A stretch of 49,777 nucleotides of DNA. It comes from a virus. Positions within the stretch are counted from its first letter, which is position 1, and every line of letters starts with the position of its first letter. Below the pieces are notes generated by a model. The model was not told where the DNA came from. It was given only the letters and a program-made list of their open reading frames with translations, and made no database searches. Made by a program: the position numbers and the translations under genes. Location of the stretch: IMG/VR virus record IMGVR_UViG_3300037468_000276, positions 1 through 49,777 of that record; one strand, written 5' to 3'. Below, in pieces: positions 1,007 to 27,196 of this stretch.

Positions 1007-3463
1007 TCAGGAGTAGCGAACAATGATGGTGAAAATGTGGCCGGAAGATCCGGTGCCGACTGACACCAGGTCAACTCCAATCGTGTCCCCAGCCGCGAGG
1101 GTCAGGGTGCCGGTCAGGATGGCGCTGGCATCGGTCAGGATGGCGCTGGACGCCAGGCTGGCGTTAGCGCTCAGCAGGTTTGTTTTGGTGCCACTACGGC
1201 GGGCGTATAGCATTGCCTGGCTGGCGCTGCTGCCAGCGGCAGTGGGGGCCAATTCCCAGAACGCACCTGTAACCGTGCAGGCACGTTGCACCGTTGTCTC
1301 AACGTAGTTGGTGGCAGCAGTGGCGGTTTCGCCCTTATTGGACACCACCAGCTTGATTACATCACTTGGGACAAAAGTGCCACTCTGGAGGGATAGCCCC
1401 CCGGACAAGGTTGCTCCAGCAGCAACACCACCGTTGTTGTAAATAACTTGGCCTGTGGTACCGGCGACGGGGCCTGTTGCCCCTGTGGTACCAGCGGCAC
1501 CTGTGGCTCCAGATGCGCCTATGGGGCCCGTGGCCCCGGAAACCCCTATGCCGGTAGCACCGGTTGGGCCGGTTGGGCCGGTTGGGCCGGTTGGGCCGGT
1601 TGGGCCGGTTGGGCCGGTCATCCCAGTTATACCCTGTGGACCAGTCGCGCCGGTTGCCCCAGACGTTCCAGCTCCAGTTGCCCCAGTTATACCAATAGGC
1701 CCGGTTGCTCCAGTGACTCCAATCCCAGTAAGACCAGTAGGACCAGTCGCACCGGAAACCCCTATGCCGGTAGCACCGATTAGGCCCGACACCCCAGTTA
1801 TACCCTGGGGGCCTGTTGCCCCCGTTGTTCCAACAACACCTGTTCCACCGATGGGGCCTGTTGCCCCCGTAGATCCCTGGGCACCGTTAACTAATGCTAG
1901 GAATAACGAATGGTTATTACTGAAGTTGGTTGTCCCTGACCCGGAGGAATTTAGTAGAGATACGGGATATTGCCAGTAACTATTTGAAGTTCCGGGATTT
2001 ATGTTGGAGGGTATGCCATTAATCACCCAAGTTTGATAGTTTAAGCTATTATCCCTATCTTGTATAGTAATTTTTTCAGTTTGGGTTAATTGCGATAAGA
2101 AAATATCGATATCTATGTTGTCGTCTGTTAAATGACTAATGTTTAATGCGGTTGAGTTGATTTGTGTGGCATTGTTCCAGATTAAGAGCCCCTGGCCAGG
2201 ATTTCCCGTAGTGACTGTAGTTTTGGCGCGGTATAGGAATAAACTAGAGGAGTACCCTTGGGGGCCAGTCGCCCCGGTAGCCCCTACGGCGCCATTCGCA
2301 CCAGTTGCACCAGACGTTCCAACTCCAGTCGCACCAGTTATACCAATGGGCCCGGTTGCTCCAGTGATTCCAATGGGCCCAGTTGCTCCAACAGCTCCGG
2401 TTGCCCCTGTTGCACCGGTAGCCCCGGAAACTCCAATTCCAGCAGGTCCAGTAGCCCCCGTTGTGCCGACAACGCCGGTCGCACCGGTAGCCCCAGACGC
2501 TCCAAAACCTGACACCCCAGTAGCCCCTATCGCCCCAGTGGCCCCGGTAGCTCCAGACGTTCCAACTCCAGTCGCGCCGGTTATACCTATGGGACCGGTT
2601 GCTCCAGTCGCACCTGTTGCTCCGGTAGCTCCAGACGCTCCAAAACCTGACGCCCCGGTTGCGCCTATCTCACCAGTTATACCAATGGGCCCAGTCGCAC
2701 CGGTTGCCCCTGATGCTCCAAAACCCGATGCCCCGGTAGCTCCATCCGCCCCAGTAGCCCCGGTAGCCCCGGTAGCTCCATCCGCCCCAAAACCTGACGC
2801 CCCTGTTGCGCCGGCTAGTCCGGTAGCCCCGGTAACACCAATTGGGCCCGAAGCCCCGGTTGCCCCTGCTGCCCCAGTGGGTCCAGTGTCCCCACGGAAG
2901 CTAGACACCCATTGGCCACCCGAAAGGTCAACATACCATACTGAAAGATACGAAGACAAAGTGTCAAACCACAAGTCGCCTTCATTTGGGTTTTGAGGTG
3001 CTGACGCAGAAACCGTTACAGGTGAACTTGTCTGTGGTGTTTGACCGGATACTAATACCCAGTTGGAGCCGCTCAGAGACTCAACCCAAACGTATAAGCT
3101 ATTATTTGTGGTGCGATACCAGAGGGTGCCGTTTACGGGATTCGATGGGGCCGACGCAGATACAAACACACAAGGGGTGCATCCATTACCAGGGGACGAA
3201 GTGACTTCTTTCCACTCTCCGGGGCCACCTGGTTCTAGAACCCAAATATATAAAATTTCGCTTACAGTATTAAACCAGAATGACCCCTGGAGAATCGGGG
3301 GTGCAGGCTGAGAAGTGGAGACGTATATTGGGACCGTAGTCGGTTCGGGTTCAGACAGGTTGATCCACTGTCTTCCGTTCCAACGGTAATCAGAGCCTTG
3401 CCATGAGAAAGTCTCCCATAGTGAAGGGTTTGGCGGGAAATTTTGGGGGAAATTCTCAACCAT
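1007..3463 (-). CDS. Collagen-like tail fibre protein, 818 aa
   Basis: The N-terminal 190 residues contain three copies of a beta unit with the pattern APxxPxxGxLWYxTxxxxLYVW, at about residues 50-80, 100-130 and 150-180. Two long collagen-type Gly-X-Y tracts follow, about residues 190-420 and 545-690, dominated by GATGATG and [10 protein letters not shown] units. A globular insert of roughly 120 residues ([18 protein letters not shown] onward) separates them. The C-terminal 130 residues form a beta-rich head ([12 protein letters not shown] onward). Phage collagen tracts normally form trimeric fibre shafts, so a side or tail fibre is the likely role. The DNA repeats behind the tracts are near-identical and prone to slippage and length variation. 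Confidence 0.85.
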
Positions 3464-3464
3464 C

Positions 3465-3695
3465 TTAGGCTTCGGGGGATTGTGTCCGAGGGTTCAAGGT
3501 ACCACCACTCAGTTGGACCTTTTGTATTCGAACACCAAGGTCATAATAAACGTCGAAGATATCAACCATTTTGTAAGCTCGGACAACATCAACAGTGCCA
3601 TCTTTTCGAATAACCGTGTGACAATCCGAAGTTAATTGCCCAGGGATAATATCATAGAGCTTAACATCTTCAGCAACGACTTTCACCTTTGACAT
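3465..3695 (-). CDS. Hypothetical small protein, 76 aa
   Basis: A 76-residue soluble protein ([20 protein letters not shown] start) lying one base upstream of the collagen-like fibre gene and probably co-transcribed with it. Beta strands are suggested by the [19 protein letters not shown] region. The family is not recognised. It is preceded by a GGGTAAA element 28 nt upstream of the ATG, the same spacing as in front of the 1500-aa tailspike gene, so it is probably the first gene of a late fibre operon. A chaperone or connector role is possible but not shown. Confidence 0.6.
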
Positions 3696-3723
3696 TTGAC
3701 CTTGGGTTCAACCTTTGGATACT

Positions 3724-3730
3724 TTTACCC
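3724..3730 (-). promoter_or_regulatory. GGGTAAA late-promoter-like element
   Basis: Context TAGGGTAAAAGTATCC, with 28 nt between the heptamer and ATG 3695. One member of the recurrent element set described in the findings. Confidence 0.55.
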
Positions 3731-3745
3731 TACTCTTTACACAAC

Positions 3746-3847
3746 TCACAGAAGTATCAGAGCCAGCAATGGCACAACCATTATTAAAAACGCGATTAAA
3801 AAGCCCCCCACCCCATTGGCAAGGGGCCATAGACTGTCAGGTTCCAT
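3746..3847 (-). CDS. Small single-span membrane protein, 33 aa (putative)
   Basis: A 33-residue frame fills the otherwise empty gap between two fibre genes. After MEPDSLWPLANGVGG comes one hydrophobic helix of about 20 residues (FLIAFLIMVVPLLALILL) ending at the stop. Small one-helix proteins in phages may be holin or lysis helpers, and in cyanophages may be photosystem accessory subunits; I cannot choose between them. No strong ribosome binding site is visible. A GGGTAAA element sits at 3898-3904, 50 nt upstream, which supports transcription across the gap. It may equally be a chance frame. Confidence 0.4.
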   Translation of the reverse strand: MEPDSLWPLANGVGGFLIAFLIMVVPLLALILL

Positions 3848-3897
3848 GTTTGTTTGTTTGCGGGGTCACTTTGATTTGGGGTCTTTGCTGATGGAGT

Positions 3898-3904
3898 TTT
3901 ACCC
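3898..3904 (-). promoter_or_regulatory. GGGTAAA element, distant from start
   Basis: Context GGGGGTAAAACTCC, 50 nt upstream of the 33-aa frame. The spacing is longer than for other copies, so it is the weakest member of the set. Confidence 0.35.
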
Positions 3905-3991
3905 CCGTTTTCCTCTGGGGATTCAATCTGTAACTAATTCCTTTCCCCCACAATATCATACATTACTGAGTAGAGATGGTGACGTGTTGAT

Positions 3992-6900
3992 TTATTGCCC
4001 CTCATTGTACGGCGTAAACCCGAATTTCCCGTCGTTTTCGTAAAAGAACATTGCCCCAAATTCTACGTCATAGGTCTGTGACTTGTCGTCAAAGTAGAAC
4101 TTTAATAAGGCGTTGGAAGTGTACGGATCAACGAGAGTCAGGTCTAAGTCTGGGGCTTCAATGGCGAATGTATATTTCCTCCAGAATGGGGGCACGTTGA
4201 ACTTAGTGTGAAAGCCCCCATCAACCCTAAAGTTGTTGCCGCTTGTTCCGGCATAGAACTGTGTGAACAGAGATACTGAGTTTTTTCTGGCAGACCTTGC
4301 CCAAAGGCATAAGAGCAACTTTTTTCCTCTGAGCCTATCCAGCTCTTCTGGGTAGCCTGGTCTTGCCACCCATGCCCTAAACTCACAGGTTTGAAATGTG
4401 TAAGCCGTAACCCCCGTCTCAGCTGCCTTTTGGAATCGATAAATATAGTAGGAAGGGTTTATCTGGCCCGCACTGTAAGAGCCTAGACCTGCCCTCCGAT
4501 CTGTAGCGATATCGTTCTTTGATCTTCTGGTTATATACATTGGTTTTTGTATAGATGAACTGGGGCCTAACTTAATGGAATTAGATCGGTCGGCAAAGAA
4601 AAATTCCGTTTCCGCAGCAGCGGGGGAATACACAAGGGTGTCCGGCGGTAGGGAACCAAGGTTTACGATACTGAATGCGCGAGTCTGTGGCTTCAGTGTT
4701 GTTAGCAATCCATACCTGGAAACAGGTTTAGTTATTCTAATCTGCTGCAAGTATCCCTGGAAGAAGTCGGTTGCACCCGTAAACCCCCCGCGACCCATGA
4801 TTGGCCTATTAAACCCGGATATAATGAACCTTCCACTAAACGAAATGGTTAGGCTTGGCTCGATGAGATCGTCAATATACACTCTTGCCACACTCCTAGT
4901 TATGGTCATAATGATCTTAGTGAAGGCGTTAATTGGGATCGTCCGGGCACTGGTGGCGTCTATAGTTTGCCCGCCTGTGCTGCGATTCCTGGCTAGCGCC
5001 AGCTTTCCATTCGCGTCAAGGATAAGTGCAAACGGCGCAGATTCAGACGTGGCCCCAAAGTCGATCAGGGTCTGACTTACATTATTCCTAAGCGGATGAA
5101 CCAAAAGCTCTAAAGTTAGATCATCCGTACCAAAGTAAAACGGAGCAGCGATGTTGTTGTTATCGGCTACACCCAGGGTCAGCAGCGAGCTTGTTCCATT
5201 AAAAGAAAAGCTGCCCGTGCCGAACTTAAAGACAGAAGTGTTAATCGTGACGTTTGTATTGTTTACAGTTAAGCCCCTTGGACTTCTATCGACAAATTCA
5301 TTTCCCTGCAGCAAAAGTACATTGCTAGGGAAGTAAGTATCTATATTGTCCTCGGTGCCTTCAGGTGTGAAATTAGCCTTAGAAGGGTTTTTCAGTAAGT
5401 TTACAACGGGTTGTTCATTCTGCGAGAAAGTTTCAAATTGATTTGTTAGGTGGACCGTATTTCCACTTAAAAGAGCATCGTTGTATTCAAACTCAAATTC
5501 GCTTTCAATCGAAACAATAGACTCTCTTGTGCAGCCATCTAGCCCGTTACCGGATATCTTGAACCCCTTGCAACGTTCCAGGACGATGGAAGCGTAGGGC
5601 CGAATGTAAAGCCTTCTGCCATTTGATTCGTATCTCCTAAGGTAAGTTGAACTTGACCCCCCGTTATCGCATCCTCGCACCATGTTATTGGCGCCGATAA
5701 CCCAATCCTTGCAGTCGATAGCCTTAATATGAGTAGAAATGTCTACGGGGCTATCGGGCATATAGTATCTACCCCGTGGCGGGACACGCCGACCGCCTCG
5801 GAACAAGAAGCAGCCGCTCATCGTCCAATAGTCGCAGCGATCAGCGCTTATTGCAGCGTACCCGCATGTGTCCCAATAGACAGAGTTCCATACATTGTCC
5901 GGAGAGAACAATGCGGTTACCCCATGCTCATGGATGTATTCAATTCTTCCATTAGTGTAGGTATTAGCGGCCGTTCCGCCCCTCATTTGCAGGCCAATTC
6001 TTGTGTTATAGATGTAGAAACTCTGTAACCGTGAGTCGAACATATTGTCAGAAGAAATTCCTACATCACACGCATTAATAAAGAAGTTTTCAAAAATGTG
6101 GACATTGCTTGGCCCGTCAATTTTGACGCCTGCTGCGCCCCTAAAGTTTCTTACTGTGAAATTGCTCATCTTGACGCTCCATTCACACGCGACCCCATTG
6201 GCATACCTGCCGCCAATAGGAGTGCCGGAAATGAGGCCTGCAGCGGAGATTGCTAGGCCAGAAGGCAAGGCCTTTGCGCTAAAGGTGCAACCTGATACGG
6301 TTGCTTCAACCTGATAAGAATAGGGCTGGTCTTTAACGGCAACAGGAAGATTCCAAATCAACGATGTTTTCAGCTGTGGTCTTGCTGCCCAGGTATTTCC
6401 TAAAAAGCTGATCAGCCCACTTACCGACTTTCCAGTTGAATCAGTGCCGATAAGGAAGAATGAGAAGTTTCCAGATGTTGTCGGTGTTCCTGTTACAAGC
6501 GCTCTGATACCATCAGTCGAAAGAGTTAGCCCCGGAGCGGGTGATGTTGTGGTGGGATACCCGGCTTGATTGTTCCCGGTAGAACGAGCGGGGTCAATCA
6601 GCCATGTGAACGGGCCAACTCCACCGACAGGGTAAATGGTCCCCTGGTAAGCCACCCCTACAGCTGCATCCGAAAGGCTGCCATACAAAGAAGGGTATGC
6701 GGTATTTTCAACTGTAAGATTTATCAAAATTTCATCAATGAGGGTATTAGCCTCAAAGTTGGCCGTACTGGTGGCACTTGTTATTGCTACTTTTAGCGTG
6801 TACTGTCCGAACGAGTTGACGGTGGGAGTGCCGGTGACCTCTCCGGTAGTTCGGTTCATTACCAGGCCTTCAGGTCCATTAACTATCCACCAATAATGGG

Positions 6901-8494
6901 AAATGCCATCGTTGTTGAGGACATTGAATGTATATTTATAGGCTTGGTTAATGGTGGCAGGGGGAATACCTACCAAAGGCAGTTCGATATATTTCCCAGT
7001 CACCTCTAGAATAAGATCTCGCTGCGCTGTGCTACCGCTTGCATCAGCTACTTGGATCGTTACAAATTGCTTGCCTATTACGGCGGTTGAGGCATTACAT
7101 GTCACCCACCCGGAGCTAGAGACTGCAAACCCCGTAGGAATGGTGCCGGAAATGACATCCCACTGGTAAGGGTTGGCGGGCGTGATTTGTGTATAGGTGG
7201 AAGTCCCCGGACCGACTCCAGTAACATTGCCGCCCATTGCTTTTAGCTGAAAGCCTGCATACCATGCGTCTCCATATTGGTGGGACGGTATAACGAGAGT
7301 CTCCAGCTCTAGGGGCTTGTTTTGCTTAGGGTCGCTGGGGTCAATGACGTACAGCTCCCCATTAAATGCGTAAGACCCTCCAACCCCTAGAGGGGATGTT
7401 GCGATTTTGACAATTGGGTACCATGACCCGAAGGCCATCTCATACCCATCTACCACGATTCCATCTAGCTTGGAGGCGTCCCCTCGCAGGGCGACAGCGC
7501 AGTTATAGTCGTTTGGTCGATATAAAACACAATCTGGATCCACGTAGATAACAGTAGGGACAGCTACGTTGTAGTCCCCCGCGAAACTGGAATCCTGGAC
7601 AGGGTACACTAGAGTATTCTTATTCCCTTGGATTGTCATTCTTGCGCCTACTTCAAGGTATCTTTTGATTCTGCAGTTTCCATTTACCTGAACGACGCTA
7701 GTTTTGCCGACAAACCATTTACCCACTGTCTCTACGCTGTTCATGTCGTAAGCAACATCCAAAGCTTGCTGAATTGAGGGATAATCGTCAGCAATTCTGT
7801 TACCAACACAGCCGAAAAAATCAGCGGAAATAATGTCATCCCATATTCTTCTCCATACTCCATTAGTGCCTGGGGCAGCCTCACCGACACCATTGAGGAA
7901 ATCCTCAAGATTTGCCCTGGTCCCATTGTACGGAACCGTGGGACTTATGAAAGTTCCGCCATCGTGAAGTGCTTTAGGGGTGTCTGCTTCCCACTGAAAC
8001 CATCCGCTTCCTCGTGTGGTTTCGTATGGGGACGTTAAGGTCAATACTGCTTCCTGATAGGAGGCGTAGAACCTTTTAACAAACACCATCCCCGAATTTG
8101 GGGCGGTTTGAAGGTCTGTTATTGACCCGAGCGAAACTGACCCAGCTGCACCCGTTGCTCCGGTTGCCCCGAAACCAGTCGCACCCTGGGCACCAGTCGC
8201 ACCCACTGGCCCTGTTGCTCCAGACGTTCCTATACCAGTCGCACCGGTTATACCAATGGGTCCGGTTGCGCCGGTTGCCCCGAAACCAGTCGCCCCAGTT
8301 GCACCCTGAGCACCTGTCGCCCCAGTGGTTCCAACACCCGTTGCTCCTGTTGCGCCGGTTATACCACCACCGGAAGGCACAATATCCCATGTCGAAGCTG
8401 CATCATTCCACTCGTATTGGTTGACGCCAGGGACGGGGATCTCCGGAAACAATTGTCCATTGATTGGGTTATCTGGGAAGACAATCACCGTCAT
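3992..8494 (-). CDS. Tailspike or long tail fibre with beta-helix, 1500 aa
   Basis: The N-terminus (about residues 1-40, [18 protein letters not shown]) is a phage fibre head type with a [13 protein letters not shown] strand. A short collagen tract follows at about residues 45-120 ([15 protein letters not shown]). The middle resembles a pectate-lyase-like beta-helix entry ([15 protein letters not shown]). Three putative-Ig-like (He_PIG-type) units at about residues 430-690 carry GxVTGTPT signatures. A second beta-helix region follows (about 780-980). A LamG-like domain lies near residues 1080-1240 ([16 protein letters not shown]), then a C-terminal jelly-roll-like domain. Such proteins bind or cut host surface glycans; no catalytic residue can be assigned here. 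A GGGTAAA element lies 28 nt upstream. Confidence 0.8.
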
Positions 8495-19977: not shown

Positions 19978-20151
19978 CTAAAGGTAAGCTCCACCTAAGA
20001 CAGCATCTTCACTCACGTCTCCCTTCTCTCGAAGCTTCATCGCAGCTTCAAGGTACGGGTTTGCACCGTCTCTAAGTTCCCCACGCCGTTCCTTGTATCG
20101 AGACATGAGTGCAATGTACTGTGCGTCGTTTTTTCCTGTGGTCCTTTTCAT
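19978..20151 (-). CDS. Hypothetical protein, 57 aa
   Basis: A basic helical protein: MKRTTGKNDAQYIALMSRYK, ERRGELRDGANPYLEAAMKL and a short tail ending GGAYL. Its ATG overlaps the stop of the 484-aa kinase-like gene (TAATG), a translational-coupling arrangement. No family is recognised. As with the 52-aa gene behind the first kinase-like gene, a small coupled gene follows a kinase-like gene. Confidence 0.65.
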   Translation of the reverse strand: MKRTTGKNDAQYIALMSRYKERRGELRDGANPYLEAAMKLREKGDVSEDAVLGGAYL

Positions 20152-21605
20152 TAGATTCCCTCGTAGAGTGTGTTAATCACTTCCATAGCTTGCGTATCAC
20201 TTAGCTTAGCCCAAACTCCCTCCTTGTATTTCTTGTCGGGAGTTCGAAATCTGGTTTTAAGGACTTTATCTAAGTTCTCACCTTCTATCCCGAAACGTCG
20301 AAGTTTCTCGATGGCTCTCTCTTTGTTTGTGTACGCTTTGTAAGCTAACGGAGCGTCTTCTTTCAGGAATTCTAAGTAATGAGCTCTTTGCTCTGAAGGG
20401 ATATTCTTTCTTTCAACGTCTGCAATCAGGTTCCCGCCTGGACCCCAACTTGAAAAGGTGTGGTCTGCGCTTTTGCCCTTAGGCCCAGGAAAAGCTCCTA
20501 GCGCCTCTACGAGAGCAGCTTTCGGGTTGTCTTGCGCCAACCCCATATCAACGAAACGCCCCTTACCTTTCTCATCTACCAAAACATTGCCCCCATGCAT
20601 ATCATTGTGCGCTATGCCCATTCTATGCAAATCCGCACGAGCCTTCCAATAAGCATCGGTGCGCACTCTGCCATAGTTCGTCAAAACACCTAAGGTGTCC
20701 CCTTCAACTTTTGTCATAGCAATACGACCGTTCCTTAGGTCTATCCCCGTTCCATTACGGCCAGCTGGTCCTCCTATGTCCGCAGCAATCAACTTTGGCC
20801 CTAAGTTCGCTCTACCGACTTTATCTACGATAGCAGCTTCTGTTCGACTAATTATACCTCTCTTAATAACTTCGCCGTCTGGACTTAAAATTGCGGTACC
20901 GTACATACCCGACCCCAGCACCCTCGCCCCGCCCCCTAAGGTGCGACTCCAGCCGTCGTATTTAGGATCTCCTTGTCTCACATGGTTGCTCTTTTCAATC
21001 TTTGAGTCCATGATAGCGGCTATTTCTTCTTCCCAGGATAAACCAGCTGAGTTGACTTTCTTAGTGGTTTCCCTTGGGCTCCGGTGCTCCTCAAGAATGC
21101 TCCTGATGTCGTCCAGAACTTCCTTCTTCGTCGCTTTGACCACCTCCGGTTCAGTTCGTGGTTCGGTTCCGACTCTTTCACCTTTTCCCGTTACAGAAGC
21201 TTTTTGTTGTGGCAAAGCCGAGACTTTTGTGGCGCTAGCCGATGAAGGTTTCCGTTTGGCCAGGAGCTTATTCACCTGCTCTCTCTGTTTATCATTCAGC
21301 CTCGGGTCGACCAAAATTTTCTTCAGTTCTTTAACTGGCAGCGACTTCACCCTAGCAGTCAAGCGCATCCTACCGGGGGTCACTTTTTTCTCGGGTTCTT
21401 TCGCCTTTCCCTTTATGTTGGGGTTAATCTCTTTGACTTGCTCGGTTCCTTTGCGACACTTTCCTCCCGTACCGTAGGCACTGCCGTCCTGTCTCACACA
21501 GCGCGTAAAGTCGTAAACTTCTTTTTCAGAAAAATTGAATGAATGTTGTTCTACAACCAGCGCCTCGTATGCTTGAAGAGCTTCGTGGGAGAAAAAATCT
21601 TTCAT
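20151..21605 (-). CDS. Protein-kinase-like protein with two-cysteine module, 484 aa
   Basis: Starts at ATG 21605, 27 nt from a GGGTAAA element; a TTG six codons upstream is less likely. The N-terminus MKDFFSHEALQAYEAL fits the shared motif, and the two-cysteine module YDFTRCVRQDGSAYGTGG then KCRKGTE is at about residues 31-54. A basic, Pro- and Ser-rich linker (55-150) precedes a kinase fold at about 215-400: VLGSGMYGTAILSPDGEVIK, catalytic loop AHNDMHGGNVLV and metal loop RFVDMGLA. The HND catalytic triad and Asn are intact; DMG replaces DFG. The remaining C-terminal 90 residues are helical. It may be injected with the DNA to modify host proteins, which is inference. Confidence 0.82.
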   Translation of the reverse strand: MKDFFSHEALQAYEALVVEQHSFNFSEKEVYDFTRCVRQDGSAYGTGGKCRKGTEQVKEINPNIKGKAKEPEKKVTPGRMRLTARVKSLPVKELKKILVDPRLNDKQREQVNKLLAKRKPSSASATKVSALPQQKASVTGKGERVGTEPRTEPEVVKATKKEVLDDIRSILEEHRSPRETTKKVNSAGLSWEEEIAAIMDSKIEKSNHVRQGDPKYDGWSRTLGGGARVLGSGMYGTAILSPDGEVIKRGIISRTEAAIVDKVGRANLGPKLIAADIGGPAGRNGTGIDLRNGRIAMTKVEGDTLGVLTNYGRVRTDAYWKARADLHRMGIAHNDMHGGNVLVDEKGKGRFVDMGLAQDNPKAALVEALGAFPGPKGKSADHTFSSWGPGGNLIADVERKNIPSEQRAHYLEFLKEDAPLAYKAYTNKERAIEKLRRFGIEGENLDKVLKTRFRTPDKKYKEGVWAKLSDTQAMEVINTLYEGI

Positions 21606-21632
21606 TGCGAGGGGAATTTGCAACCGAGTAGT

Positions 21633-22535: not shown

Positions 22536-24992
22536 TCAAGCCTCGCAACTTTGGCATTCGTTGTACGGGTTGTTTGAATCTTCATAGGCGTTTGCCGTTG
22601 CGTTGGTGTTTAATTGTTTGCAGGCTACGTAATCAGTATAGCCACCTATGTGCTTCTTGTAAAGCCATAATTGAGGGACAGTTGTCCAGTCGGAGTTCCA
22701 AAAACCCTTTTCCTCAGCTTCAGCTTTCGTGATTTCCTCATAGCGGATTCCATCAGCAGCCAGTTCTTCTTTAAGCTTCCCACACCAGGGACAATTTTCG
22801 CGAGTTACAATTAAAGCGGGGACAACCTCTTTATTTGTCAATAAACTGCTGCCCTTTAGGTAATAGAGAGACTTCAGTTTCATCTTCCAAGCAGCGAGAT
22901 GCAGACGAGTGATGTATGCAGCATCTGACTTAGGGTCTGGGAATAAATTCAGTGATTGGCCTTGACAGACGTAGGGTTGTCTATCTGATGCTTGTTTAAT
23001 CAGCTCAAACTGATCAACTTCTCGAGCGGTCTTAAAGACTTCTTTTTCCGATTCGGTTAAGCAATCGAGACCTTGAACACTGCCCTTAGCCTCCAGAATT
23101 TGATCCCATACTTCCGGGCCAATGCTCCTATCGCAGAAGATTTTCTCAAGATACTGATTTTTCCTTACGTAAGTTCCTTTGCCCTGTTTAGCAACGTAGT
23201 AGTTGCGGTCTCTCGGTTCAATCCCTTCCGTTCCAGCCCCGCAAATTACACTGTTTGTTTTAGTTGGGGCAATTGCAATTAGGTGCGTATGACGCATCCC
23301 TGTACCTTTGCACCATTCCGGTTCTCCGAACCTTTTGGCCAGCTCTTGGGAAGCTTTGACTGCTTCTTCTTTCATCCAGCGAGAGGTTTCAATGTTCAGT
23401 GCCCTAGCTTCCTGAGTTCTAACAGGTAATCCGTGAAGTTGGTATAAGGAGTGAAGCCCCATCACACCTAAGCCAAGAGCACGACTTTTCTCAGCGAATC
23501 GAACAGCTCTTCCCATGCCAACTTTATCTTTCGCTTTGCGAATGAACTCGCTAACGACGGCTTCCAAGAAGTGAATTCCGATTTGGGGAACAGTACGGCC
23601 AGAGACAGGGGACTTCCAGTTCTTGTACTCGTCGTAGCGGCTCAAGTTTAAGCTACTAAGAACACAAACGAACGAGTGATTTTCGTCTGTGTGTAGGAAG
23701 ATCTCTGAACAGTTATGGACAAGAACCCCCGAGTTTATGTCCCCAGTTTTTGTAATAATGAAGAAGTTGTGGTTGTCTTCGACGCGCAGGTCGTAAACAT
23801 CCTCTACCCCTAGGCTCCGAACACTAACGACGCGAAGGCCAGACTGCTCATTCGTCACGGTGTTGATCGTTCGATGCCCAAATTCATTCACGAAGGAGGA
23901 AAAGGGCTCAAGAGTTTCTCCTACTGAGAACTCAGCTTCCACCCATGAACAGTCCCTTCGAGCTAAGAGGTGGTCAGGGGTGCACTTAAAAGTGCTTCCG
24001 TCCTCAAGCTCTACCTCAGTGACTTCTCGAGTTCCTGTCTTGAACGCGACAGCATTTTTGATCTCGGTGACCCACTGATTCTTTAACTCTGTGCTCCGGT
24101 ACATGCGCTGACGAGCCGAATACACTGGGAAAGAAGTGTTAACCAGGTCTTTTATTGGGACGGAGTTCCTACCATCGGCAACGGCCACAAGAGTCTCTGC
24201 CGTGAAACACAAGTTACTAGTCTTGACTGAAAGACCTCTCTCAGTGTAACAACTAGGGTTTTGATTGTTAACATTATCGATGAAGATTAGGTAGGGGCTG
24301 CCTGAAATCATCCTTGTCCTCAAAACTTCAGCGAACAACTCATGTTTCAAGGTGTCACCAGCAATCATTGACTCTACCCACTCGTCTGTGATCGTCAAAG
24401 CGATATTTGAGTCTAGCCAGGCCCTAGGGTCTCCTTTTGTGTGATCCTTTGCACGAAGCAATTCTGGAACGTCCGGGTGATCAATAGGCAAGTAAAATGC
24501 GAACGACCCTCTCCTGACTCCTCCCTGAGAAACAACTCTGGCGCAAAGGTCGTATTGTTGCATCCAAGGTACAACACCGGTTGACTTACCTCCTCCAGAA
24601 ATAGGGGCACCCGCCGGTCTTACGTCTCCGAAATAGTTGCCAACGCCCCCTCCATTTTTACTCAGCTGAGCAACTTCTTTTAGGTGAGAGTAAAGAGAGG
24701 AAACGCTGTCTGAAGCGTGAACGGAAAAACACGAAATAGGTTGACCACGATTGGTACCGAAATTGGAAGCAACTGGGCTCGCCGCACCGATCCATCCTTG
24801 CCAGAGACAATGGAGTAAGTCGTCGCTTAGAGTTAGGTCGTCGTTGATTTTGCCAGCTGTAGAAGCGAGCCGATTCATCATATCTCTTGGTGTTTCACCG
24901 GGCAGGAGATAACCAGAAGAGAGAGTATGCAGAGCCTCTGCGTTCATCCATGAGGGATGAGTTTCGTTGTCAGGAATACTAAACCAGCTCAT
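22536..24992 (-). CDS. nrdA: Class Ia ribonucleotide reductase alpha subunit with mini-intein and glutaredoxin fusion
   Basis: 818 residues as translated, 652 after removal of a 166-aa intein (residues 262-427). The alpha barrel keeps the redox Cys in QPISCFS (88), the radical-site NLCSE split by the intein, the second redox Cys in FVCVLSSLNLS, and the tyrosine pair SLYYL. It lacks the N-terminal ATP-cone. From about residue 723 a glutaredoxin domain is fused: CPWC redox motif, TVPQLW and HIGGYTD. The normal redox tail with NECQSCEA follows. The enzyme makes deoxynucleotides for phage DNA. Its ATG overlaps the nrdB stop by ATGA. The fused glutaredoxin may reduce the active site in cis. Confidence 0.95.
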   Translation of the reverse strand: MSWFSIPDNETHPSWMNAEALHTLSSGYLLPGETPRDMMNRLASTAGKINDDLTLSDDLLHCLWQGWIGAASPVASNFGTNRGQPISCFSVHASDSVSSLYSHLKEVAQLSKNGGGVGNYFGDVRPAGAPISGGGKSTGVVPWMQQYDLCARVVSQGGVRRGSFAFYLPIDHPDVPELLRAKDHTKGDPRAWLDSNIALTITDEWVESMIAGDTLKHELFAEVLRTRMISGSPYLIFIDNVNNQNPSCYTERGLSVKTSNLCFTAETLVAVADGRNSVPIKDLVNTSFPVYSARQRMYRSTELKNQWVTEIKNAVAFKTGTREVTEVELEDGSTFKCTPDHLLARRDCSWVEAEFSVGETLEPFSSFVNEFGHRTINTVTNEQSGLRVVSVRSLGVEDVYDLRVEDNHNFFIITKTGDINSGVLVHNCSEIFLHTDENHSFVCVLSSLNLSRYDEYKNWKSPVSGRTVPQIGIHFLEAVVSEFIRKAKDKVGMGRAVRFAEKSRALGLGVMGLHSLYQLHGLPVRTQEARALNIETSRWMKEEAVKASQELAKRFGEPEWCKGTGMRHTHLIAIAPTKTNSVICGAGTEGIEPRDRNYYVAKQGKGTYVRKNQYLEKIFCDRSIGPEVWDQILEAKGSVQGLDCLTESEKEVFKTAREVDQFELIKQASDRQPYVCQGQSLNLFPDPKSDAAYITRLHLAAWKMKLKSLYYLKGSSLLTNKEVVPALIVTRENCPWCGKLKEELAADGIRYEEITKAEAEEKGFWNSDWTTVPQLWLYKKHIGGYTDYVACKQLNTNATANAYEDSNNPYNECQSCEA
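23712..24209 (-). mobile_element. Mini-intein in NrdA (166 aa, no endonuclease)
   Basis: Begins with Cys (CFTAETLVAVADG, block A), has block B GSTFKCTPDHLLA at about 72-84, block F VYDLRVEDNHNFF at about 138-150, and ends SGVLVHN before Cys (block G). The penultimate His and terminal Asn are intact, so splicing should work. There is no LAGLIDADG or HNH domain in the linker (about 95-125), so it is a mini-intein unable to home by itself. The +1 extein residue is the NrdA active-site cysteine, equivalent to E. coli Cys439. Confidence 0.92.
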
Positions 24993-25966
24993 GTAAGTAC
25001 GAGGTCAAGGGTTTTTAGGTTGACTCCAAGGAAGTCTTGAGTTGGTTTTGCAACATATCCGCTACCATCCTTGGCTTGGGCGAAAAAGTCTGTGCTTGTG
25101 GAACCAGCTGCAATAGGGTCGAACCACTGCTTGATTACGTTCGCAGCTTCAAGGTCTACTTGGAAGAGTGGTACAGAAATCCCCAGTTTAGTTAGCCTGT
25201 CGTTCGCCCGCCAGCGAAGATATTGCTTAGTGTTGTACAGGGTTATGGTCTCAAGTGCACGACCCTCGAAGATTTGGTTAAGAAATGCGTCCTCGTTGCG
25301 GAGAACAGCTTTAAACCCTTGAAAAATCATCTCGGCCTCGTTTTGGGTTAGAGGATCCTCTTTCACTAACTCTCGGAAGAGTTGTATTCCTGTGTCGCTA
25401 TGCTGCTGCTCATCCTGAATTGACCACGAGATAATTTGTGACAGTCCACGATATTTGCCAGTAAGATTAAGAGAAAGTAAGACAGCAAAAGAACTGAACA
25501 AAGAGACTCCCTCACCCGCACCCGAAAACACAGCCAAAGATTGCTTAACTGAGCGATCTTCAAGGAAATACCCGATCTTTTGTTGGGCAACGGGATCTCC
25601 AAGGAATGCTTCAAATTCGTTAAGTCCTAGAGTGTCAGATAACAAGTTATATGCTTCACTATGGACTACCTCCGATAAGGAGAACATTCTTGCTACGGCA
25701 GCTATTTCATGCTTAGGGAACCAAACAGGAACTTTCGCCCAGTAGTCGGACACGTGAGTTTCCAGGATCGTAAACCCCCTTAATATTCCTGCAACAATTT
25801 CACGCTCACTCTCGGAAGCATCTTGCCAGTCTCGAATGTCACTCTCGAAAGACACTTCTTGCGGGCGCCAAACCGAAGAAAGAGCTTTTTGATATTGTTC
25901 GAAGAAGAAGGGATACTCGAAGCCTTGTTCAGTTTTGTAGGCCGCCCTATAGTTCCTGATACTCAT
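24989..25966 (-). CDS. nrdB: Class Ia ribonucleotide reductase beta subunit
   Basis: 325 residues of ferritin-like fold. Iron ligands and radical site are visible: Glu in ILETHVSDYW, the ExxHxxxY cluster in SEVVHSEAYNLL, where Tyr is the radical site, and the second pair in QDEQQHSDTG. The C-terminal tail (NLKTLDLVLT) should dock on NrdA. The stop overlaps the nrdA start, as expected for an equimolar pair. The upstream neighbour is a homing endonuclease whose stop overlaps this ATG. Confidence 0.95.
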   Translation of the reverse strand: MSIRNYRAAYKTEQGFEYPFFFEQYQKALSSVWRPQEVSFESDIRDWQDASESEREIVAGILRGFTILETHVSDYWAKVPVWFPKHEIAAVARMFSLSEVVHSEAYNLLSDTLGLNEFEAFLGDPVAQQKIGYFLEDRSVKQSLAVFSGAGEGVSLFSSFAVLLSLNLTGKYRGLSQIISWSIQDEQQHSDTGIQLFRELVKEDPLTQNEAEMIFQGFKAVLRNEDAFLNQIFEGRALETITLYNTKQYLRWRANDRLTKLGISVPLFQVDLEAANVIKQWFDPIAAGSTSTDFFAQAKDGSGYVAKPTQDFLGVNLKTLDLVLT

Positions 25967-26598
25967 TGAAGTCTCTCTCTATTTTTAGTGTTAATACCCC
26001 GTGCTTTTTGATAGCTGCTGAGACCACAAGGGGTGGATATATATCCTGTGACCGTACACATCCACTTTTGTGCGTGCTGAACTTTAGAGCCTCTTTTTCC
26101 TCCGGTGGCTTTATCCTCCAGGGACTGAGCTTTTGACCCCGCTTTACACCACTCGAGGAGGTTTTCAGTGTACCTTGGGTTAAACAAACCCGTCTTTTCA
26201 GCGTAATGGCGATGACCAACTAAAGTTCCGTTCTGGTGAGCGTAGACTTCAGCTACCCTTCGAGCCCCGTTTCTGATATTCTCTTGTTTTTCCGGAGGTA
26301 GGAGCGAGAAAGTGTCTCCTCCTTCTCCACCCTTTGTGAAATTGAATAGTAAACCGTTTTCCTTGACGCTCTTCCACGATATAATAAGATGTTTTTCTAT
26401 GTTTTCACATGATGTTCTTAACCCTGAAAACACTATTTCCTGGAGAAAATCTCCCCGAAGTTCACATTCTTTTCGGTGGCCGGTGGCCCACTTGTTTCTA
26501 CGTTTAGACCTGAGTCTGCTTTCCCCCCCTATTCCAACATAGAAAGGTACTTTCTTATCAAACCATACGTAAACGTTGCATTGTTGCGAATTTGTCAT
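25963..26598 (-). CDS. Free-standing GIY-YIG homing endonuclease
   Basis: 211 residues. The N-terminal GIY-YIG core reads CNVYVWFDKKVPFYVGIGG, followed by a basic helix (SRLRSKRRNKWATGH) and the glutamate helix SCENIEKHLIISW. A C-terminal DNA-binding part carries NUMOD-like segments (PEKQENIRNGARRV and KATGGKRGSK). It overlaps the 212-aa gene upstream by about 40 nt and nrdB by 4 nt, so it has inserted with almost no spacer. It probably targets the nrd locus of competing phages, though its site is unknown. Confidence 0.82.
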   Translation of the reverse strand: MTNSQQCNVYVWFDKKVPFYVGIGGESRLRSKRRNKWATGHRKECELRGDFLQEIVFSGLRTSCENIEKHLIISWKSVKENGLLFNFTKGGEGGDTFSLLPPEKQENIRNGARRVAEVYAHQNGTLVGHRHYAEKTGLFNPRYTENLLEWCKAGSKAQSLEDKATGGKRGSKVQHAQKWMCTVTGYISTPCGLSSYQKARGINTKNRERLQ

Positions 26599-27196
26599 TC
26601 TGGCGTTTTAAACGTTTTGCTTCTTGTTCTGCGAGATATCTGTCTCTCGCGGGTTTGTGTTTTTCGTGGTCCCACCAGGTAGGAGTGCCACCATGACGCC
26701 ATTCGGCGTAGCCTTTCTCACCTAAAAGGTAATCCCGGTAGGCTTGGATAGGGTCGGCAGGGTTTTTGTACTGCTCCGGCATTGCTTGAACAAACGGAGT
26801 ATGATCTTTTGAGCAGGCTTTATTGAAGTTCCTGTATACGACAGTTCTGATTTGACTTAAACCGTGGAGAGTCCCGTGGTATTTGTTGTAACGCTCAAAG
26901 TACTCTTGATTCATTCCGTAAGCATGTTCCAAAAGCCAGTGGACATTGGAAGGGCTTTCGTAAAGCCATTTTGCACAAGGGTGGTGAGCGAAACCTTTCG
27001 TTCCGTAATACAGTTTCTCGGATTCAAGTAAGTTTAAGTGACCGCTAGAAACAGGTTTCTCGATTTTGATGTCAAAAGTATTAAAGACCCAGGGGGTTAG
27101 CAGCGTCAAGCTCTCAGCCGGCATTTTTACAACGAGCTTGTCGGGCAGTGAAGCTCCTGCAATTTGAGGATCTTCGTGCACAGCGAAAATGTTCAT
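26558..27196 (-). CDS. Conserved cyanophage protein of unknown function, 212 aa
   Basis: Starts MNIFAVHEDPQIAGASLPDK and has the HPCAKWLYES, VHWLLEHAYGMNQEYFERY and AMPEQYKNPADPIQAYRDYL blocks. I recall a family with this layout in many T4-like cyanophages, always annotated as hypothetical. The conserved His, Trp and Tyr residues suggest a nucleotide or metal-binding enzyme, but no function is established. It is followed by nrdB after a homing endonuclease and lies in the nucleotide-metabolism cluster. Confidence 0.7.
   Translation of the reverse strand: MNIFAVHEDPQIAGASLPDKLVVKMPAESLTLLTPWVFNTFDIKIEKPVSSGHLNLLESEKLYYGTKGFAHHPCAKWLYESPSNVHWLLEHAYGMNQEYFERYNKYHGTLHGLSQIRTVVYRNFNKACSKDHTPFVQAMPEQYKNPADPIQAYRDYLLGEKGYAEWRHGGTPTWWDHEKHKPARDRYLAEQEAKRLKRQNDKFATMQRLRMV

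Follow-up and report, generated by a model that had tools for sequence, protein, structure and literature searches.

The nrdA gene of a 49,777-base virus record (hereafter the window, meaning the whole stretch of DNA analysed) is interrupted at the codon of the RNR radical cysteine by an insert of 166 aa. The insert is an intein, the splicing of which is predicted from profile matches and a structural model. Very probably it is a class 1 mini-intein derived from an HNH-type homing intein whose target is the coding DNA of the RNR radical-cysteine motif, and it would splice constitutively. Splicing would most likely follow the standard route: formation of a thioester by Cys1; attack on the thioester by Cys+1; cyclization of Asn166; and restoration of the Leu-Cys bond, which would place the radical Cys in a mature NrdA of 652 aa. 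The mini-intein, its own nuclease deleted, would persist because its imprecise removal would cost the enzyme an essential residue of the active site. We infer that the window intein is spliced in the phage-infected cell and that the intein has spread by nuclease-driven homing; the position of the insert makes it likely that unspliced NrdA is inactive.

The intein and exteins of NrdA

The genes surrounding nrdBA in the window are ordered as in cyanophage S-CBWM1, which points to a cyanophage origin of the window. The nrdA precursor (22536..24992, minus strand; 818 aa plus stop) encodes a class I RNR large subunit (Pfam Ribonuc_red_lgC, E 1.5e-92) in which Pfam recognizes RNR all-alpha, barrel, intein splicing and glutaredoxin domains. 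Directly upstream, with a 4-base overlap, lies nrdB (24989..25966, minus strand; Pfam Ribonuc_red_sm, E 2.7e-47). The N-extein (residues 1-261; 24210..24992, minus strand) ends in TSNL and the C-extein (391 aa; 22539..23711, minus strand; best PDB relatives 6dqx and 6dqw) begins with CSEIF, the flanks of the junctions being VKTSNL and CSEIFL. The glutaredoxin domain identified by Pfam (residues 728-782; 22647-22811), with the motif CPWC, sits between the reductase barrel and the CxxC motif of the C-terminal tail (CQSC, 22545-22556), its expected substrate. CP[WY]C and the tail CxxC are found in 18/18 NrdAs of the window's phage group. PMC6187632 refers to two grx::nrdA fusions of viral origin.

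Translation confirms the boundaries given in an earlier, sequence-only reading of this DNA: the intein (23712..24209, minus strand; NrdA residues 262-427) starts with CFTAETLV and ends with VLVHN, so that 166 aa ending in HN directly precede a Cys and the spliced product has the claimed 652 aa (818 - 166). The insert matches Pfam Intein_splicing (E 6.7e-10, above the curated cut-off) and the NCBIfam models intein_Nterm (TIGR01445; 45.2 bits, cut-off 24.5) and intein_Cterm (19.5 bits, cut-off 15.6). Four segments on the minus strand we take to be the following splicing blocks: block A, with the nucleophile Cys1, at residues 1-10 (24180..24209); block B, FKCTPDHLLA, with Thr77 and His80, at residues 74-83 (23961..23990); the block F region, VYDLRVEDNHNFFII, at residues 138-152 (23754..23798); and block G, SGVLVHN, at residues 160-166 (23712..23732). 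C1, T77, H80 and N166 are invariant in 31/31 aligned relatives and the penultimate His is kept in 28/31, in keeping with the earlier statement that the splicing blocks are intact. Cys1, the Thr-x-x-His of block B and a C-terminal HN followed by Cys make up the class 1 pattern. An AlphaFold2 model of the intein (25 rows; mean pLDDT 89.9, pTM 0.86) has a predicted HINT fold: the first 17 PDB matches listed by Foldseek are all inteins, with Ssp DnaB mini-inteins at the top (best E 5.4e-10); another of the top matches is the Npu DnaE intein. Endonuclease profiles, HNH and LAGLIDADG included, gave no match to the 166 aa, whereas homologues of 342 aa do match HNH profiles; the absence of an endonuclease had likewise been read correctly.

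Identification of the +1 residue (codon 23709..23711, minus strand) as the radical-site cysteine also stands, as this residue aligns with C428 of yeast Rnr1 (PDB 3s8a). A further Cys, 15 residues on (C-extein residue 16), aligns with C443 of the same structure. We take C428 to be the radical cysteine (C439 in E. coli) and C443 to be one of the redox-pair cysteines (C462 in E. coli). As in RIR1-type inteins, the window insertion lies at the radical-Cys codon with that Cys as its +1 residue, as indicated both by the alignment and by relatives in which the site is empty.

Relatives at the same codon and loss of the endonuclease

Judged by the sequences of its relatives, the window mini-intein is what is left of a mobile element that occupies the same position in many other viruses and microbes. 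Full-length inteins of 342 aa with HNH occupy this codon in the cultured Synechococcus phage S-CBWM1 (L001) and in the metagenomic IMG/VR phages L006/L007, with further full-length inteins in L112 (344 aa), L114 and L118 (338 aa each) and L116 (342 aa); shortened forms occur in L008 (210 aa, half-deleted) and L004/L005 (167 aa, mini). The S-CBWM1 intein (MG450654, annotated as 'similar to intein') interrupts the same SNL/C codon and shares the window's neighbours, with nrdB upstream and a sigma factor downstream; its splicing part is 65% identical to that of the window intein, but it retains the endonuclease (HNH_3, E 1.5e-5). The nearest inteins (L006/L007, L008 and L004/L005) are 77-88% identical to that of the window and differ from it in the stage or joint of endonuclease deletion. 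An endonuclease of its own, as expected of a mobile homing intein, is present as HNH in L001 and L006 and absent from the window intein.

Compared with full-length L006, the window intein lacks ~176 aa. The scar of the HNH endonuclease (intein residues 105-124, SFVNEFGHRTINTVTNEQSG; 23838..23897, minus strand) retains the left edge of the L006 endonuclease region (SFVNEFGHRxINTVTN), followed by the right splicing half. In the intein tree the window groups with L004 and L008, though support for this is mixed (96/32). A single deletion shared by these three was rejected because the deletion joints differ among them, and independent events are favoured.

A tree of 18 close NrdA genes comprises six full-length, one partial, two mini and nine empty alleles, the empty ones reading ..SNL/CSEI.. 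across the site, and full-length L006 sits within a clade of empty NrdAs. At least four changes between empty and occupied states are needed on this extein tree, in which gains are not separable from losses. The relatives compactly document the life cycle of an intein at a single codon, as forms with the full nuclease, partial deletions, mini-inteins, empty sites and apparently fractured genes, a large part of them in phages with NrdA exteins 85-88% identical to those of the window. A second size series at the same codon is found in more distant phages, in which the inteins of L024 (333 aa) and L117 (157 aa) share a 12-residue left flank.

Other arrangements were seen at or beside this codon. 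NrdA is broken there in L035, L036, L040, L041, L037-L039 and L042, where the N-intein ends in a stop and the C-intein lies in another frame, in some cases with a longer intervening stretch; these are likely fractured genes with split inteins. L009 (6772-7188) has a different intein, located after the radical Cys (NLC/SEI), and L025 (about 6727-7854) has a LAGLIDADG intein at the same codon that ends FN/CSEI.

Comparison of synonymous divergence suggests that the intein is younger than the surrounding gene and has moved between phages, because its pS (proportion of synonymous differences) is below that of both exteins. Between the window and L004, L006 and L008, intein pS is 0.43, 0.53 and 0.43, against N- and C-extein values of 0.79 and 0.68, 0.83 and 0.78, and 0.77 and 0.66, respectively, with disjoint bootstrap 95% intervals in all three comparisons, a contrast that could in part stem from differing codon constraint. 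The control pair of the window and L112 has no such deficit (intein 0.98 versus exteins 0.80 and 0.83), so that past horizontal transfer is indicated in 3/4 intein-bearing window pairs (L004, L006 and L008, not L112). Beside the intein junctions, where synonymous differences are as high as elsewhere, no co-conversion tract was seen.

The intein dN/dS between the window and L004, L006 and L008 is 0.19, 0.085 and 0.23, respectively (0.47 between L004 and L008, with few changes), and therefore splicing function appears to have been maintained after loss of the nuclease. These values bear on the alternative that the intein is dead or splices poorly, leaving the phage with a non-functional NrdA and a decaying gene. 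The nuclease is indeed gone, and related L008 has a rearranged linker; yet the frame is intact, all catalytic residues are kept, the barrel cysteines, the glutaredoxin CPWC and the tail CxxC are all conserved, and dN/dS is well below 1 for the intein and also for the exteins where measurable, synonymous sites being saturated for many extein pairs. Decay of this kind is highly improbable.

Generality of the insertion site and redox control

A profile of eight inteins, made without extein sequence, was searched against GTDB genome contigs, which gave 26 loci, and against IMG/VR, of which the best 80 of 150 matches were taken. Together with earlier loci, the intein start was resolved in 122 loci, 94 of them distinct when flank and intein start are compared, and it lies at the RNR radical-cysteine motif in 122/122, a count drawn for its viral part from the best 80 of 150 matches and throughout from searches seeded with RNR inteins, which leaves room for the family elsewhere. 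The residues preceding the intein are NL in 32 loci, NP in 77 and NPC in 13. Wherever an HN-type right junction was recognized, the +1 residue is Cys in the NL and NP classes; in the NPC class, inserted one codon later, the radical Cys directly precedes the intein, at -1, and the +1 residues recognized are Ser. The simple pattern used missed many right junctions among the 122 loci. RNR Pfam families were matched by 9/10 sampled N-exteins (L135 matched none), and one NCBIfam match is the intein of an RtcB-related protein. Related inteins occur in RNR genes of named Dickeya, Salmonella, Vibrio, Acinetobacter and Sphingomonas phages. Within the reach of this RNR-seeded search, which covered phages, bacteria and archaea, the lineage seems to be specialized for the radical-cysteine motif of RNR.

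Several known inteins are comparable. Methanothermobacter (Mth) RIR1 is a 134-aa mini-intein at RNR NP/C with the radical Cys as its +1 residue; it is archaeal, unlike the window intein. The name of this intein occurs in PMC7765530. Acinetobacter phages SH-Ab 15599 and nACB2 and Sphingomonas phage PAU carry mini-inteins of 151-159 aa at SNL/C of the RNR large subunit, with no room for an endonuclease; these are 31-34% identical to the window intein, and in SH-Ab 15599 and nACB2 Ser replaces the penultimate His. The nearest characterized relative by site is the metagenomic NrdJ-1 split intein (PDB 8ubs; Foldseek match E 6.8e-7), which also lies at the RNR radical-Cys motif. Its host protein is presumably a class II RNR, and we take Cys76 of NrdJ-1 to be the block-B cysteine. 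Unlike the window intein, NrdJ-1 is split and located one codon later, with the radical Cys at -1 and Ser at +1, its native exteins being NPC and SEI (PMC13123727). The Aquifex aeolicus R2 intein likewise splits RNR catalytic residues (iron ligands) and has a +1 Cys, but it differs in residing in the small subunit, in having a LAGLIDADG endonuclease and in reportedly aiding iron loading (PMC8772380). Inteins in phage RNR genes have been reviewed (PMC3653736). Within the literature covered, which included few subscription papers, no print statement was found of the radical Cys as the +1 residue in phage NrdA inteins. Inteins at the RNR radical Cys and the S-CBWM1 annotation are already known; the window adds an HNH-derived mini-intein at this site to that kind.

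Because the class inserted one codon later uses Ser, the catalytic Cys is not required as the splicing nucleophile. The better explanation of the site is that it was chosen for its invariant DNA, as a conserved homing target rather than a dedicated switch. A location of inteins near active sites is also reported in the literature, both for A. aeolicus R2 (PMC8772380) and in PMC3359363, which gives a mean distance of 8.3 A versus 21.1 A for other Cys/Ser/Thr sites. As the relatives of the window intein show, an intein can parasitize an essential enzyme at its most constrained residue.

The sequence-only reading had gone further and linked reductase activity to the cell's redox and splicing state. 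As a domesticated switch, the intein would keep NrdA inactive through Cys oxidation, for example a disulfide of Cys1 with Cys+1 or Cys76, until reducing conditions prevail in the cell, and dNTP synthesis would thereby be matched to redox state. Such control is possible in principle because a disulfide of active-site cysteines inhibits another intein, that of P. abyssi PolII (PMC5874633), and the two splice nucleophiles of the window, Cys1 and Cys+1, could pair. Arguing against the tie to redox state are intein-free alleles in 9/18 near relatives and the Ser at +1, one codon later, in 13/122 loci. Cys76, the extra cysteine of block B, is present in only 28/31 relatives, its NrdJ-1 equivalent is reported to be dispensable, with a splicing half-life of about 26 s (PMC13123727), and no extra Cys that could pair with Cys1 is found at positions -6 to -1 (VKTSNL). 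The purifying selection on the window intein, which a switch would explain, is equally expected for plain splicing. According to a 2014 review, no physiologically relevant conditional splicing had then been found (PMC4031507); later papers propose it in other proteins (PMC6195587, PMC5790916). A domesticated switch is therefore very unlikely, and redox control is unsupported by the present sequence comparisons, which contain no pointer to conditional splicing. By analogy, a precursor as short-lived as that of NrdJ-1 would represent a brief maturation step and not an evident switch. A latch formed by internal cysteines was separately considered and rejected, Cys76 being found in 28/31 relatives and Cys87 in 3/31.

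The glutaredoxin domain of the precursor itself, which would also suit a switch, allows a further variant, to which we attach almost no credence: the cis-glutaredoxin would hold both splice nucleophiles, Cys1 and Cys+1, in the reduced form, and NrdA would mature only in a reducing, light-driven host cell. If true, this would couple maturation of NrdA to the electron flow that drives its catalysis.

Putatively mobile DNA next to nrdA and other window ORFs

A 1691-bp block of the window (24999-26689) is 93.8% identical to L004 3486-5176, against 67-78% for the flanks, and takes in, beside a GIY-YIG-like ORF, the end of a denV-like gene and almost the whole of nrdB. In L004 the block interrupts the resident nrdB at about codon 122, so that a truncated copy remains there, and the sister locus L008 is uninterrupted. 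Its sequence suggests an endonuclease cassette that moved recently and brought nrdB along. The ORF within it (211 aa; 25963-26598, minus strand) has a GIY-YIG-like motif at its start, identified by eye (VYVWFDKKVPFYVGIGG); similarity to hypothetical cyanophage proteins, including one or more of S-PM2, is seen in its C-terminal part, and it has no match in Pfam, PHROGs or NCBIfam.

This free-standing ORF upstream of nrdB might supply a nuclease in trans and keep the mini-intein mobile, for it adjoins nrdB in the window and in L004/L005, all of which have mini-inteins. However, no profile match confirms its GIY-YIG-like character, the 1691-bp block with which it moved stops short of nrdA, the examined stretches of intein-bearing L008 and L006 lack it, and the ancestral nuclease of the intein itself is HNH. 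A trans-acting GIY-YIG nuclease was rejected since the distribution does not fit, and continued mobility by this means is extremely improbable.

In L002 (S-TIM5), a free-standing annotated HNH endonuclease gene (3563-3925) lies between nrdB and an intein-free nrdA. Elsewhere in the window, a collagen-repeat protein of 818 aa (1007-3463, minus strand; Pfam Collagen, E 1.4e-32) is probably a fibre, and a 490-aa ORF (20151-21623, minus strand) has weak matches to phage protein-kinase families.
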